Part shown: one piece after another, positions 6,802-48,889 of the stretch
Numbering within the stretch: position 1 is the stretch's first letter
Layout: each line of letters starts with the position of its first letter
Origin: Leuconostoc inhae
Lineage (GTDB): Bacteria > Bacillota > Bacilli > Lactobacillales > Lactobacillaceae
Direction: 5' to 3'
Length of the DNA: 64,000 nt
Assembly (NCBI RefSeq): GCF_019656015.1
Contig: NZ_BPKW01000005.1
Span: 1-64,000, forward strand
Notes under the pieces: generated by a model
The model's input: the letters and a program-made list of their open reading frames with translations, nothing else
What the model was told of the DNA's origin: nothing
Databases searched by the model: none
Translations under genes and position numbers: made by a program

Positions 6802-6819
6802 GAACGTATAATTAAATAA

Positions 6820-6903
6820 AGATATCTGGGGTGCCAACTGTTTTACTGGCTGAGAAATACCCATATAACCTGATCAGATTAGAATCTGCGTAGGAAGATA
6901 TGA
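6820..6903 (+). ncRNA. TPP riboswitch (THI element)
   Basis: Contains the conserved THI-box elements in order: TCTGGGGTGCC, the GGCTGAGAAATACCC block (6848-6862), AACCTGATCAG and the closing GCGTAGGAAGAT. An expression platform follows; the AACTG at 6920-6924 and CAGTTTTTTT near 6954-6963 could form a terminator. It precedes thiE-thiS-thiF-thiG, so TPP is expected to repress the whole unit. Confidence 0.95.
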
Positions 6904-7003
6904 TTGATAATATTATTTGTCGAACTGTTTTTTGCGTGTTTTAACGTGAGGAGCAGTTTTTTTATGTTTGGAAATTGAAATGACGAAAAGAGGATAGATA
7001 GAT

Positions 7004-16666: not shown

Positions 16667-16806
16667 ACGATGTCAGTTAGTTGCTAATTCAGTTAACATG
16701 ACAATATGTGGTATCAATTAAACATATCAGGCGAATAAGTGACATTTTGGTATTGTTCGGATAGAAAGGTGCTACAATGGGGAAGTCAATATGACAAATA
16801 AAAAAA

Positions 16807-16926
16807 GGGGTAGATATCTGCGCGTTAAGTGTGAGGGAGACGGAATGTGATCCTTCAACGAAATAAAAAATGCTATGTGGTAAAACCATGTTGTAATTTT
16901 TTGTGCGATGCAGATATCACATTCAC
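16807..16926 (+). ncRNA. THF (folate) riboswitch
   Basis: Matches the folT/folE tetrahydrofolate class: GCGTTAAGTGTG (16822-16833), GGAATGTGATCC and CAACGAA, then a variable hairpin and the distal strand GCAGATATCAC, which closes the outer helix with ATATCTGC at 16814-16821. Just downstream, CTCC (16950-16953) can pair with GGAG (16958-16961) of the folT ribosome site, a likely translational off-state. It precedes folT. Confidence 0.88.
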
Positions 16927-16971
16927 CAATATATGTTTTGCGGTGAGCGCTCCACTCGGAGGTTCAGAACT

Positions 16972-42802: not shown

Positions 42803-43783
42803 ATGAAAACAGATGAGCGTATTCTACAATTTTTTGCCGAACATGAAGGAGAATATTTAAGTGGCGAGACTTTAGCTAAAAATTTAGATATTAGCCGCGC
42901 AGCCGTATGGAAAGTTATTAAAAAATTGACAGAGCAAGGACATACGATTGATAGTCAGCACCATGTTGGCTATCGTTACCAAAGTGGTAACGTTTTGAGT
43001 ATACCGATGATTAGACAATTGGCGCATAGCGACTGGCAAATAAAGCTGTTTGATTCCATTGATTCAACAAATACCTATGCAAAAGAGGCGTTGACTCGTG
43101 GTGATGTGACGGTACCTACTATGATTGTTGCTAATCAGCAAATTGGTGGTCGTGGGCGTTTAGGTCGTACTTTTGTATCACCCTCAGACACAGGTTTGTA
43201 CATATCGTTTGCTTTACCACTACCATTGGGAACATCGGTAGTACCTGGATTATTGACAACTGGTACTGCTGTTGCGGTTTCACGGGCTATTAAGCAAACG
43301 ATTGGCATTGAATTAGACTTTAAATGGGTTAATGATTTGTTATTTGAAAATCGCAAAGTTGGTGGTATTTTAACTGAAGCAGTGATGGATTTTGAAAGTC
43401 AGCAAGTATCAGCAATTATTGTAGGTATTGGGTTGAATTTACGACAACCGTATAATTTAGATGCCACATTAGAAAATAAAGTTGGTGGCATGGTTGAACA
43501 CTTGACTGTATCACGTAATGTGATTGTCGCTGCATTACTCGATGAATTTGTTAAATTGTATGCGGAATACACTGATGGCTCATTTTTAACAGCATATCGT
43601 CAACGTAATATTGTCATAAATCAAACTGTAACACTGAAATATGGTAAAGAAATCGTAACAGGTATAGTAAAAGAAATTGATGATCAAGGACAATTGCTTG
43701 TAGATACAGGTGATGATATCAGAACGATTAATTCTGGGGAAGTATTGAAAGTACAATTGCCAAATAATAGCTATCGTGGTTAA
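42803..43783 (+). CDS. birA: Biotin-protein ligase / biotin repressor
   Basis: A 326-residue bifunctional BirA. An N-terminal winged helix (about 1-65; SGETLAKNLDISRAAVWKVI) binds DNA. The ligase domain has QIGGRGRLGRTFVSP (biotinyl-AMP loop), KWVNDLLFENRKVGGILTE and a C-terminal SH3-like part. It attaches biotin to acetyl-CoA carboxylase carrier protein. AATGAGGA precedes the ATG; bioY follows after 32 nt. Confidence 0.94.
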   Translation: MKTDERILQFFAEHEGEYLSGETLAKNLDISRAAVWKVIKKLTEQGHTIDSQHHVGYRYQSGNVLSIPMIRQLAHSDWQIKLFDSIDSTNTYAKEALTRGDVTVPTMIVANQQIGGRGRLGRTFVSPSDTGLYISFALPLPLGTSVVPGLLTTGTAVAVSRAIKQTIGIELDFKWVNDLLFENRKVGGILTEAVMDFESQQVSAIIVGIGLNLRQPYNLDATLENKVGGMVEHLTVSRNVIVAALLDEFVKLYAEYTDGSFLTAYRQRNIVINQTVTLKYGKEIVTGIVKEIDDQGQLLVDTGDDIRTINSGEVLKVQLPNNSYRG

Positions 43784-43815
43784 TTATCAACAGACTAGAA
43801 AAAATTGGAGAAAAA

Positions 43816-44352
43816 ATGAATTCAAATACACAACGCATTGCTATTACTGCGGTACTAACAGCACTATTACTTGCTGTCGGACCATTAGCGATTAATATTG
43901 GACCAATTCCAATGACTTTACAAACACTCATTATTGCCTTAGTAGCCTCGGTGTCGTCAACGCGTGTGAGTTTAACAGCTATTGGCTTGTATTTATTATT
44001 GGGTGCTTTTGGATTGCCAGTATTTGCTGGTTTCAAAGGTGGTTTTGTTTTCTTAGTCGGACCAACAGCTGGTTATTTATGGTCATTTCTGCTGTTCGCA
44101 CCAATTATCGGTCTATCTTTTAAAAAATGGGACAATGTGTGGGGATTAATTGTGACAAATATTTTAGCTTCAGTGGTTAACTTAACAATAGGTACGATTT
44201 GGTTAATTATGAATATGCATATGTCCATTGCAGCAGGTATTGCAGCTGGAATGACACCGTTTGTGCTATCGAGTGCTTTTAAAATTACGATCGTTGTGAT
44301 CGTTGCGTTGGCAGTCAGAAAAGTACAAACACGAACATCGCTAGCGTTTTAA
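43816..44352 (+). CDS. bioY: Biotin ECF transporter S component
   Basis: A 178-residue, six-helix BioY. PIPMTLQTLIIALVAS, LLLGAFGLPVFAGFKGG and GPTAGYLWSF are the family motifs. It imports biotin, probably with the shared ECF module encoded elsewhere. Cotranscribed with birA, so repressed when biotin is sufficient. Confidence 0.94.
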   Translation: MNSNTQRIAITAVLTALLLAVGPLAINIGPIPMTLQTLIIALVASVSSTRVSLTAIGLYLLLGAFGLPVFAGFKGGFVFLVGPTAGYLWSFLLFAPIIGLSFKKWDNVWGLIVTNILASVVNLTIGTIWLIMNMHMSIAAGIAAGMTPFVLSSAFKITIVVIVALAVRKVQTRTSLAF

Positions 44353-45373: not shown

Positions 45374-45402
45374 TTGACAAAATAAAAAAATTAGAATAAA
45401 AT
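45374..45402 (+). promoter_or_regulatory. Promoter of the lysine-riboswitch operon
   Basis: TTGACA 45374-45379, 17-nt spacer, TAAAAT 45397-45402. Confidence 0.75.
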
Positions 45403-45420
45403 AAAAACAATAAGAAAATC

Positions 45421-45576
45421 ATAGAGGTTGCCATAACCAAAAGTCACTCGTGGAGTATTGATAGATACTGTGAAACGGGCAAAAGGGGCTGTGGCCGAAG
45501 CGCTGATACTATCATATCAGTAAGCTGGGTCATTAGTTAATAACTAATGGACTGTCGCGTTTGCGGGGTGCTATGA
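45421..45576 (+). ncRNA. Lysine riboswitch (L box)
   Basis: Matches the L box in order: ATAGAGGTTGC at the 5' side, GGGGCTGTGGCCGAAGCG (45485-45502 region), GCTGGGTCATTAG and the closing GGACTGTC (45549-45556), ending with GGGGTGCTAT, which pairs with the 5' side. A terminator follows at 45599-45637. It controls alr and asd. Confidence 0.9.
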
Positions 45577-45598
45577 CAGAAACGATTGTTTTATTGCG

Positions 45599-45637
45599 AT
45601 CCGTGACTGCCATACTTGGCAATCACGGATTTTTATT
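45599..45637 (+). terminator. Regulated terminator of the lysine riboswitch
   Basis: ATCCGTGACTGCCA (45599-45612) pairs with TGGCAATCACGGAT (45617-45630; one A-C mismatch), then TTTT. Confidence 0.9.
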
Positions 45638-45658
45638 TTAGATGAAAAGAGTACAAAA

Positions 45659-46771
45659 ATGGTAGAAGCAATTACGCGACCAACGCAAATAGAAATTTCT
45701 AAAAAGGCTTTAAAGCATAATGTTGCTGTTGTTAAGCAAGTATCTGGTGCCGATAAAATATTTTTGGCAGTCAAATCAAACGCCTACGGATTAGGTTTGG
45801 TACCAACATCTCAGGCGGCTGTTGCAGGTGGGGTCTATGGTTTGGCTGTGGCTGTCATTGATGAGGCGCTGGCACTACGACATGAACGTATTACTGAACC
45901 AATTCTTATTTTAGGAATTTCACCAGCAAAATATTCTGAATTAATGGCCGTGGAACATATTATGGTAACTGTTGTATCGTTATCATGGTTAAAAGAAGCA
46001 ACACAATATTTAACTGGTGAACAACGGTTGCATATTACGTTGGGTGTGGATACAGGGATGGGTCGCATCGGCTTTCGTTCTCGAGAGTCTTTAGCAGAAG
46101 CAATCGCCTATCTGCAAGCACATGACGATATTTTTGATTATGTTGGCTTATCAACACATTTTGCTGAATCAGATTCTGCTGAGACGGATTACTTTTATAT
46201 GCAACTTAAGCGGTGGCACGATATAACAGATGGTTTACCAGAGCCTGAATTTTATCATGTGGCAAATTCAGGTGCAGCAATGTATCACGCTGATGAAGTA
46301 CCCCATGAGGTGATTCGTGTTGGGACTGTGTTATATGGTGTTGAGCCTTCTCGTGGTGAGTTAGCAGATGGCAAAAACTTACAACCGGTGATGGCACTGC
46401 GTAGTGAAATGAATTTTGTCAAGCAATTACCAGCTGGTGAAGGCATTAGTTATTCACATAAATACACGACAAGCGGTGACGAGTGGATAGGCACTGTACC
46501 AATTGGGTATGGTGATGGTTGGTTACGTAAAATGTCTGGATTTAACGTCATTGTTGACGGACAATACGCACCAATAGTTGGTCAAGTTGCAATGGATCAA
46601 TTAATGATCAAGTTGCCACATGAGTATCCTGTTGGGACAAAAGTGACATTCATTGGCAAGGATGGCGGACTTGAAAATACGCTTGAAGATGTTGCACAAT
46701 ACGCTGATTTAGCACCCTGGGAGATTATGACAGGCTTGCAAGATCGATTACACCGTGTGCTTGTTGATTAA
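45659..46771 (+). CDS. alr: Alanine racemase-family PLP enzyme
   Basis: A 370-residue fold-III PLP enzyme. The PLP lysine is in AVKSNAYGLGLVP (Lys near 38), the other catalytic Tyr in EGISYSHKYTTSGDEWIGT, and PIGYGDGWLR follows. Alanine racemase makes D-Ala for the wall. Being first behind a lysine riboswitch, with asd next, is unusual; a lysine racemase activity cannot be excluded from sequence, though the overall pattern is that of Alr. The ATG at 45659 has GATGAAAAGAG upstream. Confidence 0.85.
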   Translation: MVEAITRPTQIEISKKALKHNVAVVKQVSGADKIFLAVKSNAYGLGLVPTSQAAVAGGVYGLAVAVIDEALALRHERITEPILILGISPAKYSELMAVEHIMVTVVSLSWLKEATQYLTGEQRLHITLGVDTGMGRIGFRSRESLAEAIAYLQAHDDIFDYVGLSTHFAESDSAETDYFYMQLKRWHDITDGLPEPEFYHVANSGAAMYHADEVPHEVIRVGTVLYGVEPSRGELADGKNLQPVMALRSEMNFVKQLPAGEGISYSHKYTTSGDEWIGTVPIGYGDGWLRKMSGFNVIVDGQYAPIVGQVAMDQLMIKLPHEYPVGTKVTFIGKDGGLENTLEDVAQYADLAPWEIMTGLQDRLHRVLVD

Positions 46772-46823
46772 TATCATTAGCTAATTCAAGGGAAATGTTT
46801 AAAATTGAGGAGAAAAAATAAAC

Positions 46824-47918
46824 ATGACAGAACGGACATATAATATTGCTATACTTGGTGCAACCGGCGCAGTTGGCACACGTTTGATTGAGCAATTAGA
46901 AGACTCAACGATACCAGTTAACAGTTTGAAATTACTTGCTTCAGTACGGTCGGCTGGTAAAAAGCTCATCTTTAAGGGGCAAGAAATAACTGTTGAAGAG
47001 GCGACAGCAGACAGTTTTATTGGCATTGATTTGGTATTGGCTTCGGGCGGTGGTTCTGTCTCACGACGCTTTGCGCCAGAAGCAGTTAAACGTGGTGCGG
47101 TTGTAGTAGATAATTCAAGTTTTTGGCGCATGAATGATAATGTGCCACTTGTTGTACCGGAAGTTAACGAAGCTGATTTACAAGCGCATAACGGTATTAT
47201 TGCCAACCCAAATTGTTCAACAACTCAAATGGTAGTGGCACTTGAACCGGTACGCCGCGCGTTTGGTTTGCGTCGTGTCATTGTGTCTACTTATCAAGCA
47301 GCATCTGGCGCTGGACAGTCCGCTTGGGAAGAGTTAGTAGCCCAAACAGAAGCTCATAATGCTGGTGAAGAAATGGTTGCAAATATTTTGCCTGTCAAGG
47401 GGGCTGATAAACATTACCCATTAGCTTATAATTTATTACCACAAATTGATGTGTTTGAAGATGACGGTTATACACATGAAGAATGGAAAATGATTCATGA
47501 AACTAAAAAAATCATGTTCGGAGACAAAAACTCTAAGGCAGTTAAAGTAACAGGCACAGCTGTCCGTGTACCTGTACCAGTAGGTCATGGTGAGACTGTT
47601 TATTTTGAAACAGAGCCAAATACTGGTGCTACAGCTGCTGGCATTCAACAAGCATTAAGTCAAGCACCTGGTGTCATCTTAGAAGATAATCCTAAAGAAC
47701 AAATCTATCCTCAGCCTTTAAATGCTGAAGGAAAACGTGAAACTTTTGTCGGACGTGTTCGTCCAGATTTGGAAAATGACGATTCTTTCCATATGTGGGT
47801 TGTATCTGACAACTTGTTGAAAGGTGCAGCATGGAACACAGTTCAAATTGCTGAACGACTGGTTGATTTAGACTTAGTTCGTGTGCCAGCGGATGCTGCA
47901 GGTAAATTTGAAGTCTAA
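46824..47918 (+). CDS. asd: Aspartate-semialdehyde dehydrogenase
   Basis: A 364-residue enzyme that converts aspartyl phosphate to aspartate semialdehyde for lysine/DAP, threonine and methionine. Nucleotide loop [16 protein letters not shown], catalytic Cys in [13 protein letters not shown], and substrate His in [22 protein letters not shown] precedes the ATG. 52 nt after alr, in the lysine-riboswitch operon. Confidence 0.94.
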
Positions 47919-47938: not shown

Positions 47939-48889
47939 ATGGAAATATTTTTATTTTTAACGATAATCGTATTAGGATTATCTTTATACTACCAAGTGCA
48001 ACAAAATCCCGCGACAATGAAAATTGGTACGCTTGGGATTTTTATTGTTATTGGTATCGTTATTTTTATGTGTGATTTTTTTAATATCACATCAAAAAAT
48101 TTAAAATTAATGCATCAAATTGGCTACAGTATAGCTGTTATTTTTGGTATTTTGTTGTTATTGAGTATGGTACGACATAGTTGGAAAAAATCGCATCAAC
48201 TGGGACTACCTTTATTAGTTGGTATTTACCTGACGAGTTTGGTCGTGCTTAGCCAGTGGCCATTATGGTGGTTGAGTGCGCCATGGTTGATGTTATATTT
48301 TGTATGGCAATTTTGTCGCTTTATTGTGAGCAGTGTCATTTATGGTTATCAAAGTAAAGCACCAACTCACGGACCTTTGGTCGTGCTTGGTGGTGGTTTG
48401 GCAGAAGGTTATAAAGTTGGGAACATAGTCGATCAGCGCATTCAAGCAGCAGTGACGGATGCTAATAAAATGTCAGAATATCCAATGATTGTTTTTTCTG
48501 GTGGGCAGGGGGATGATCAGTTAATTAGTGAAGCTGAAGCGATGCGTGACTGGTCTGTCGCACATTATGGTGTGCCACTTGAAAAAACACAACTAGAAAA
48601 TCGTTCACGAAATACCTATCAGAATTTACAATATTCATCTCAATTGCTTTCTCAGCAACCATTCACATTTTATACGAGTGGTTATCATGTTTTTAGAGGT
48701 GTTTTGCTAGCTAAGCAACAAAATATTATTGCGCAAGGGCGTGGCGGCTTTGTACCGTTAGTTTATCGTATACCGGCTTTTTTTAGAGAATTTGCTGGTG
48801 TGATGAGCATGAATATAAGGCGTCAAATATTATGGGCAATAGTTTGGGGTATGATTGCATTTGTAGTCAATAAGATTATTACATACTAG
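47939..48889 (+). CDS. YdcF/DUF218 membrane protein
   Basis: A 316-residue protein with about four N-terminal helices (up to about 135) and a C-terminal DUF218 domain (about 140-290): VVLGGGLAEGYKVGN, FSGGQGDDQLISEAEAM and LENRSRNTYQNLQYS. Members may act in wall or vancomycin-related processes, but function is not settled. The start has no clear Shine-Dalgarno. Confidence 0.85.
   Translation: MEIFLFLTIIVLGLSLYYQVQQNPATMKIGTLGIFIVIGIVIFMCDFFNITSKNLKLMHQIGYSIAVIFGILLLLSMVRHSWKKSHQLGLPLLVGIYLTSLVVLSQWPLWWLSAPWLMLYFVWQFCRFIVSSVIYGYQSKAPTHGPLVVLGGGLAEGYKVGNIVDQRIQAAVTDANKMSEYPMIVFSGGQGDDQLISEAEAMRDWSVAHYGVPLEKTQLENRSRNTYQNLQYSSQLLSQQPFTFYTSGYHVFRGVLLAKQQNIIAQGRGGFVPLVYRIPAFFREFAGVMSMNIRRQILWAIVWGMIAFVVNKIITY

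Follow-up and report, generated by a model that had tools for sequence, protein, structure and literature searches.

The alanine racemase-like gene that stands between a lysine riboswitch and asd in Leuconostoc inhae, referred to here as alr2, is likely to encode a PLP diaminopimelate epimerase that takes the place of DapF and is switched off by lysine, and the label 'alanine racemase' is probably wrong for it. Directly supported are the riboswitch, the gene order, the existence of a paralogous alr in the same genome, the lack of dapF or ddh matches over cut-off, the co-occurrence pattern, the shared operon in other genera and the residues connected with specificity. The window analysed is a stretch of 64,000 nucleotides (positions 1 to 64,000 of contig NZ_BPKW01000005.1, assembly GCF_019656015.1), the source genome of which amounts to 1.96 Mb, spread over 35 contigs. 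With its counterparts in L. gelidum and L. inhae the alr2 protein shares 92% identity.

The riboswitch-alr2-asd locus and its leader

The features of the locus, given in window coordinates, are as follows.

45374..45402, + strand: promoter-like site TTGACA-17-TAAAAT directly upstream of the aptamer, matching 11 of 12 consensus positions in the scan (a consensus match only)
45414..45581, + strand: lysine riboswitch aptamer, RF00168 (cmscan, 95.4 bits)
45571-45576, + strand: 3' strand of P1, pairing with 45419-45424
45572-45579, + strand: antiterminator proposed from folding, overlapping the P1 3' strand and pairing with 45607-45614 in the 5' half of the terminator
45598..45631, + strand: intrinsic terminator hairpin followed by a T run, about -21 kcal/mol
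45659..46771, + strand: alr2, alr-family PLP enzyme (TIGR00492, 316 bits, cut-off 168)
46824..47918, + strand: asd, aspartate-semialdehyde dehydrogenase (TIGR01296, 430 bits, cut-off 324)

The first-pass annotation had described a lysine riboswitch followed by alr and then asd, and the profile matches bear this out. The RF00168 match covers the full model (1-182) with an E-value of 5e-24, its score standing well above the gathering score of 30. Three RF00168 copies are present in the source genome: one heads alr2-asd, another lysA-dapH-hipO-dapA-dapB, and the third an amino acid permease gene. The consensus scan for promoter-like sites returned 14 sites against 10.4 expected by chance, so that any single site is weak. 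On the + strand it returned none between the aptamer and alr, and thus no sign of the promoter bypassing the terminator that the annotation had named as the observation that would speak against riboswitch control. The 52-bp gap between alr and asd holds no terminator-like site in the scan, and the two genes are probably co-transcribed. The simple terminator scan listed two terminator-like sites against 2.3 expected, which is chance level, and missed the hairpin at 45598-45631, probably on account of an internal mismatch in its stem.

The leader folds to -69.6 kcal/mol with P1 and the terminator, and to -65.5 kcal/mol when the antiterminator is forced. Each of the 14 Leuconostoc leaders inspected has a hairpin followed by a U-tract (-9.1 to -25.8 kcal/mol). 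The best duplex between P1 and the terminator amounts to -5.7 kcal/mol in the window and to between -4.7 and -10.9 kcal/mol over the 14 leaders, in a register that varies by species; the search that yields these values always returns some pairing and had no shuffled control. This anatomy fits the usual lysine-OFF attenuation, and we infer the OFF direction from it. At low lysine, transcription would read through the leader into alr2 and asd, and at high lysine the bound aptamer would, through P1, keep the strand that could otherwise open the terminator, so that transcription would stop before alr2. With its full aptamer, P1, terminator with T run and downstream lysine pathway genes, the RNA is an ordinary lysine riboswitch (L box, RF00168) of the attenuation type; what sets the locus apart is that the controlled gene is labelled alr.

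In all 19 genomes of the genus, one alr copy is immediately preceded by a lysine riboswitch, according to a comparison of coordinates made by hand. The riboswitch-alr-asd order, the conservation of which within Leuconostoc had been proposed as a check on the annotation, was found in 13/13 named Leuconostoc loci.

Lysine synthesis without dapF

In the source genome, lysA, dapD_Ac/dapH, a gene for a hipO-type amidohydrolase, dapA and dapB form a single riboswitch-led cluster. The matches to DapD_Ac (334 bits) and to the hipO-type amidohydrolase (289 bits) place the pathway on the acetylase branch. This branch yields LL-diaminopimelate (LL-DAP), and LysA requires the meso form. No genome of the genus (0/19) has a dapF (PF01678) match over cut-off, as opposed to nine controls that do. 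Matches below the cut-off occur in four of the 19; that of the source genome is a PhzF protein (PF02567, 182 bits), and a dapF hidden behind this weak match was accordingly rejected. The shortcut through ddh was rejected as well, PF16654 being over cut-off in 0/35 genomes and in two controls, with three sub-cut-off matches at 13 bits. Since the branch produces LL-DAP, LysA needs meso-DAP and neither dapF nor ddh is found, the epimerase is missing. Oenococcus oeni is listed as able to grow in vivo when no lysine is supplied, yet its annotation offered no diaminopimelate epimerase, and that step had to be inserted in the metabolic model (PMC5372704).

To see how alr2, lysA and dapF are distributed, 151 genomes of the family (at least 95% completeness requested) were searched, lysA being counted only over its curated cut-off, which it exceeded in 108. 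Among these 108, 84 had dapF and one alr, two had dapF and at least two alr, and none had neither; the remaining 22 had no dapF, and every one of them (22/22) carried an extra alr, at least two copies in all. The 43 genomes without lysA over cut-off comprised 36 with neither, three with at least two alr and no dapF, and four with dapF and one alr; three genomes with weaker lysA matches (G031, G049 and G163, the last of which has dapF) are counted here. When the window protein was searched against the 21 non-Leuconostoc genomes with at least two alr, an orthologue at 50-59% identity was retrieved from 19, and all 16 non-Leuconostoc genomes among the 22 with lysA and no dapF hold such an orthologue. 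The two dapF-bearing genomes with several alr copies (G026 and G061) hold none, their best matches being 38-39% identical over the full length. In two single-alr, lysA-less genomes of alr2-bearing genera the best match reaches just 36% and 44%; therefore, lysA and alr2 seem to have been lost together there. The Fisher p of 6e-21 overstates the association, as the genomes are not independent and the state with alr2 and no dapF corresponds to five genera in the 151-genome set. Because the genomes are related, we read the pattern as replacement of dapF in five genera and not as 22 independent cases.

The surroundings of alr2 were compared in loci retrieved from further genomes. Eighty were obtained, of which the 48 with at least 50% identity (L120-L166 and L177) were counted; left uncounted were L167 (39% identity, beside acpS) and 31 more distant loci. 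Riboswitches were sought with cmscan (RF00168) in 16 of 18 context loci and, with an nhmmer profile built from known matches, in all 18 and in the 80, nhmmer being less sensitive than the covariance model. In 28 of the 48 loci alr2 directly precedes lysA-dapH-hipO-dapA-dapB. A riboswitch was found upstream by nhmmer in 27 of these 28, and asd follows further downstream in 24, the four without it there being from Fructobacillus. These lysA-type loci come from Weissella, Periweissella, Fructobacillus, five Lacticaseibacillus species (sharpeae, hulanensis, songhuajiangensis, thailandensis and pantheris) and two Lactobacillaceae MAGs, with some species repeated. Another 13 loci have the split form, riboswitch-alr2-asd, of Leuconostoc. 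Thus, alr2 is co-localised with lysine genes in 41 of the 48 loci (28 before lysA, 13 before asd). It lies apart from other lysine-synthesis genes in the other seven, namely two from Oenococcus, three from Schleiferilactobacillus, one from Weissella oryzae and one from a MAG labelled Bifidobacteriaceae. In Weissella oryzae the order is riboswitch-alr2 and then riboswitch-permease; beside the Oenococcus alr2 there is no adjoining lysine gene, and no riboswitch was found nearby.

From the 48 loci, 27 genomes were drawn, with Leuconostoc and near-duplicates left out. None of these 27 (genome completeness not given) has PF01678 over cut-off, and one has a weaker match. Twenty-three have lysA over cut-off, one has it in two pieces, and three (the MAG labelled Bifidobacteriaceae, S. 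perolens and Weissella oryzae) have no lysA. What weighs most against a strictly epimerase function is the set of lineages that have alr2 and no lysA: neither lysA nor dapF is over cut-off in three Schleiferilactobacillus genomes that keep alr2, in Weissella oryzae, which keeps both alr2 and its riboswitch, or in the MAG labelled Bifidobacteriaceae, in which alr2 is present. In such genomes the enzyme must act otherwise or be a remnant. Lactococcus lactis, one of the control genomes, matches lysA (cut-off status not given) and alr and does not match PF01678; going by this genome, a related family might solve the missing dapF in some other way.

Alr2 among the racemases

In Pfam the window protein matches only two Ala_racemase domains and has no PF01678 DapF domain. 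It is a member of the alanine racemase family by profile (TIGR00492) and keeps K39 and Y265, which we take to be the catalytic pair of Alr. A tree was built from 70 proteins: 31 alr2, two extra Periweissella copies and 37 others. All 31 alr2 and the two extra copies form one clade (100/98), apart from other Alr. Twelve of the 84 single-alr, dapF-bearing genomes were placed in the tree (L209-L220), together with G026 and G061, and all 14 Alr from these dapF-bearing genomes lie outside the alr2 clade. The clade is also distinguished by two residues. W354 is found in 31/31 alr2, in both Periweissella extras and in 0/37 others, and T223 in 28/31 alr2 and in 0/37 others. Every one of the 29 Alr1 and single-copy sequences in the tree has Y, H or D at position 354. 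Tyr at this position is reported to matter for the choice of substrate, and alr2 has W there; given that Alr1 copies have H in 6/15 and D in 2/15, Y at 354 alone does not define Alr.

The closest solved structure to an AlphaFold model of the window protein (mean pLDDT 84, with 12 sequences in the alignment) is PDB 3co8, which ranks first in Foldseek with a TM of 0.92 and is named there as an Oenococcus oeni entry. The O. oeni alr2 is identical to 3co8 over residues 3 to 371. Numbered on its own sequence, it carries T224 and W355, the counterparts of T223 and W354 in the window enzyme; in the other Alr of O. oeni these columns hold Q230 and D363. The lysine racemase described from O. oeni is reported to act on Lys, Arg and Orn and not on Ala, with a Km of 11 mM for L-Lys, and substitution of T224 and W355 accounted for part of the difference (PMC6955911). 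By these residue numbers, 3co8 appears to be that racemase, and orthology, with membership of the same clade, suggests that the window enzyme would behave like it. The two differ in that the Oenococcus gene has neither an adjoining lysine gene nor a riboswitch found nearby, and in that the O. oeni enzyme is named for its activity on Lys.

The first-pass annotation had offered, as one of two possibilities, that the racemase acts on lysine. Alr2 would then be a genuine racemase of lysine, or of basic amino acids broadly, making D-Lys or handling D-amino acids, and its link to the operon would lie in lysine as substrate. The part of the suggestion that holds is that an orthologue is reported as a racemase of Lys, Orn and Arg that spares Ala (PMC6955911), and the retention of alr2 in lysA-less Schleiferilactobacillus, W. 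oryzae and one MAG would suit such an activity too. However, a lysine-OFF switch would silence the enzyme when its substrate is plentiful, the reported Km for L-Lys is high, and the missing epimerase would stay unexplained in 22/22 family genomes with lysA and no dapF. We regard this reading as unlikely. The lysine-OFF switch, the association with lysA and the lack of dapF all indicate LL-diaminopimelate instead as the probable natural substrate of Alr2.

The other possibility, that the operon couples D-Ala supply to the lysine level, makes Alr2 an ordinary second alanine racemase serving the wall. Wall synthesis requires D-Ala and, in lysine-type walls, Lys, and the TIGR00492 score, nearly twice its cut-off, and the retained K39 and Y265 agree with such a role. 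A search of the genome for a second alr had been put forward as a check, and another alr was indeed found, with at least two copies in each of the 19 genomes of the genus; alr2 as the sole D-Ala source was rejected on this ground. In the source genome the second alr, 39% identical to alr2, lies between acpS and a PemK/MazF-family gene. Among the Leuconostoc loci fetched, acpS adjoins the second-type alr in 11/11, and a riboswitch was found near it in 0/11. This canonical Alr, which could supply D-Ala, shares with alr2 the fold, the PLP lysine and the catalytic tyrosine, and differs from it in overall sequence, in having Y, H or D and not W at 354, in its neighbours and in the lack of a riboswitch found beside the gene. 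A third alr copy occurs in six of the 19 genomes; the one that was tested matches histidine racemase 5zl6 (591 bits), listed by Foldseek as L. mesenteroides, and the three third copies in the tree form one group (support 100/100).

The coupling of D-Ala supply to lysine is thus not supported, the genus having another, acpS-linked alr with no riboswitch near it. The Alr-like DapF2 of S. aureus, discussed below, is presumably its alr2. In that species, whose alr2 may or may not be kin to the Leuconostoc gene, a dat alr1 mutant is reported to need D-Ala, in contrast to dat alr2, which has no need for it, although the same study also infers some second racemase activity in that strain (PMC5955480). 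W354, present in 31/31 alr2, is moreover shared with the O. oeni enzyme, which reportedly does not act on Ala (PMC6955911), and an alanine racemase would leave the absence of dapF without explanation. We hold this role for Alr2 to be very improbable.

Relation to earlier proposals and the role of Alr2

The riboswitch-alr-asd order of Leuconostoc was published in 2017 in a paper that described alr as a single-copy gene of unrelated function (PMC5584792). Both descriptions are contradicted, the former by the operon order in other genera and the latter by the alr counts of the genus. The account published there for Leuconostoc, in which an unrelated alr was inserted into a lysA-dapD-dapA-dapB-asd operon and split it, with the second riboswitch arising later (PMC5584792), is scarcely credible, since the intact operon begins with alr2 in four other genera and in two MAGs (28/48 loci), alr is present in at least two copies in 19/19 genus genomes, and the splitting of an operon that already began with alr2 requires no unrelated insertion.

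An epimerase of this kind is already known as a prediction. A paper of 2022 put forward an Alr-like DapF2 in Staphylococcus, Gemella and Peptostreptococcus, its prediction covering 125 gut genomes that were mainly Staphylococcus (PMC9026213). As described there, DapF2 resembles alr2 in being Alr-like, in lying beside lysine genes under a lysine riboswitch and in occurring in genomes without dapF. Its similarity to the O. oeni enzyme is given as 27% (PMC9026213), and with this figure DapF2 perhaps represents a separate recruitment. In the open-access literature searched we found no extension of the DapF2 idea to Lactobacillaceae or the O. oeni enzyme, nor an assignment of this role in Leuconostoc or Weissella. 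The idea may have been put forward earlier, given the 'dapX-type diaminopimelate epimerase' named for Exiguobacterium (PMC2615787); the name dapX is used elsewhere for an aminotransferase (PMC10644037).

On this reading the window holds a lysine-pathway operon, one among those of this Leuconostoc. Asd provides the aspartate semialdehyde that feeds DapA. Alr2, with an alanine-racemase fold and distinct from the main alanine racemase of the cell, would convert the LL-diaminopimelate arising from DapH and HipO to the meso form, which LysA would then decarboxylate. Through the riboswitch on alr2, lysine would shut off a step towards its own precursor. On balance, and with less confidence than for the window enzyme itself, we favour a wider scheme, in which Alr2 supplies the missing epimerase not just in Leuconostoc but also in Weissella, Periweissella, Fructobacillus, Oenococcus and some Lacticaseibacillus, the enzyme called 'lysine racemase' in O. 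oeni is actually this same epimerase, and those lineages that lost lysine synthesis and retained the gene repurposed it for another amino acid.

If this is true, Alr2 would fill the step that was added without a gene to the published metabolic model of O. oeni, and would account for the natural function of a characterised enzyme that is poorly matched to the substrate it is named for. It would likewise correct the TIGR00492 'alanine racemase' label on genes of lysine operons, a case in which the target of a riboswitch can expose a wrong gene name.

alr2 outside the genus

In Schleiferilactobacillus (loci L102–L104, L148, L154 and L164), alr2, the alr-family gene that probably encodes a diaminopimelate epimerase, is retained, and neither lysA nor dapF gave a match over the cut-off. 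A lysine riboswitch lies at a distance of 1–3 kb from these alr2 genes; in L102 it precedes a solute-binding/ABC permease gene. A riboswitch of another class was found by cmscan in L103, from Schleiferilactobacillus perolens:

L103:1144-1242, azaaromatic (yjdF) riboswitch

In Weissella oryzae (L151), riboswitch and alr2 are followed by another lysine riboswitch with a permease, and a search of this genome for lysA found none. Additional alr2-like copies, 47–53% identical to the window protein, are present in Periweissella (L115, L116 and L117), one of them ∼800 bp past the asd gene of the lysine operon. Several lysine-operon genes, including alr2, are seemingly fragmented in Lacticaseibacillus thailandensis (L165) and L. 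pantheris (L166), which appears to reflect frameshifts or sequencing errors. In the control sets, lysA and alr were matched by the control genome Lactococcus lactis and PF01678, the dapF profile, was not.

A third alr-family copy

Six of the 19 genus genomes carry a third alr-family copy, for example L206 (G016), L207 (G003) and L208 (G018). The match of L206 to the histidine racemase 5zl6 scored 591 bits.

Other features of the window

Covariance-model scans revealed two further riboswitches, and profile matches a birA-like gene with a BioY-family neighbour (PF02632, 113 bits in the Pfam profile search):

6817-6913, TPP riboswitch
16804-16930, THF riboswitch
42803-44352, birA-like biotin ligase/repressor gene and adjoining BioY-family gene
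47939-48889, DUF218 gene

The DUF218 gene starts 20 bp past the end of asd and may be included in the same transcript.
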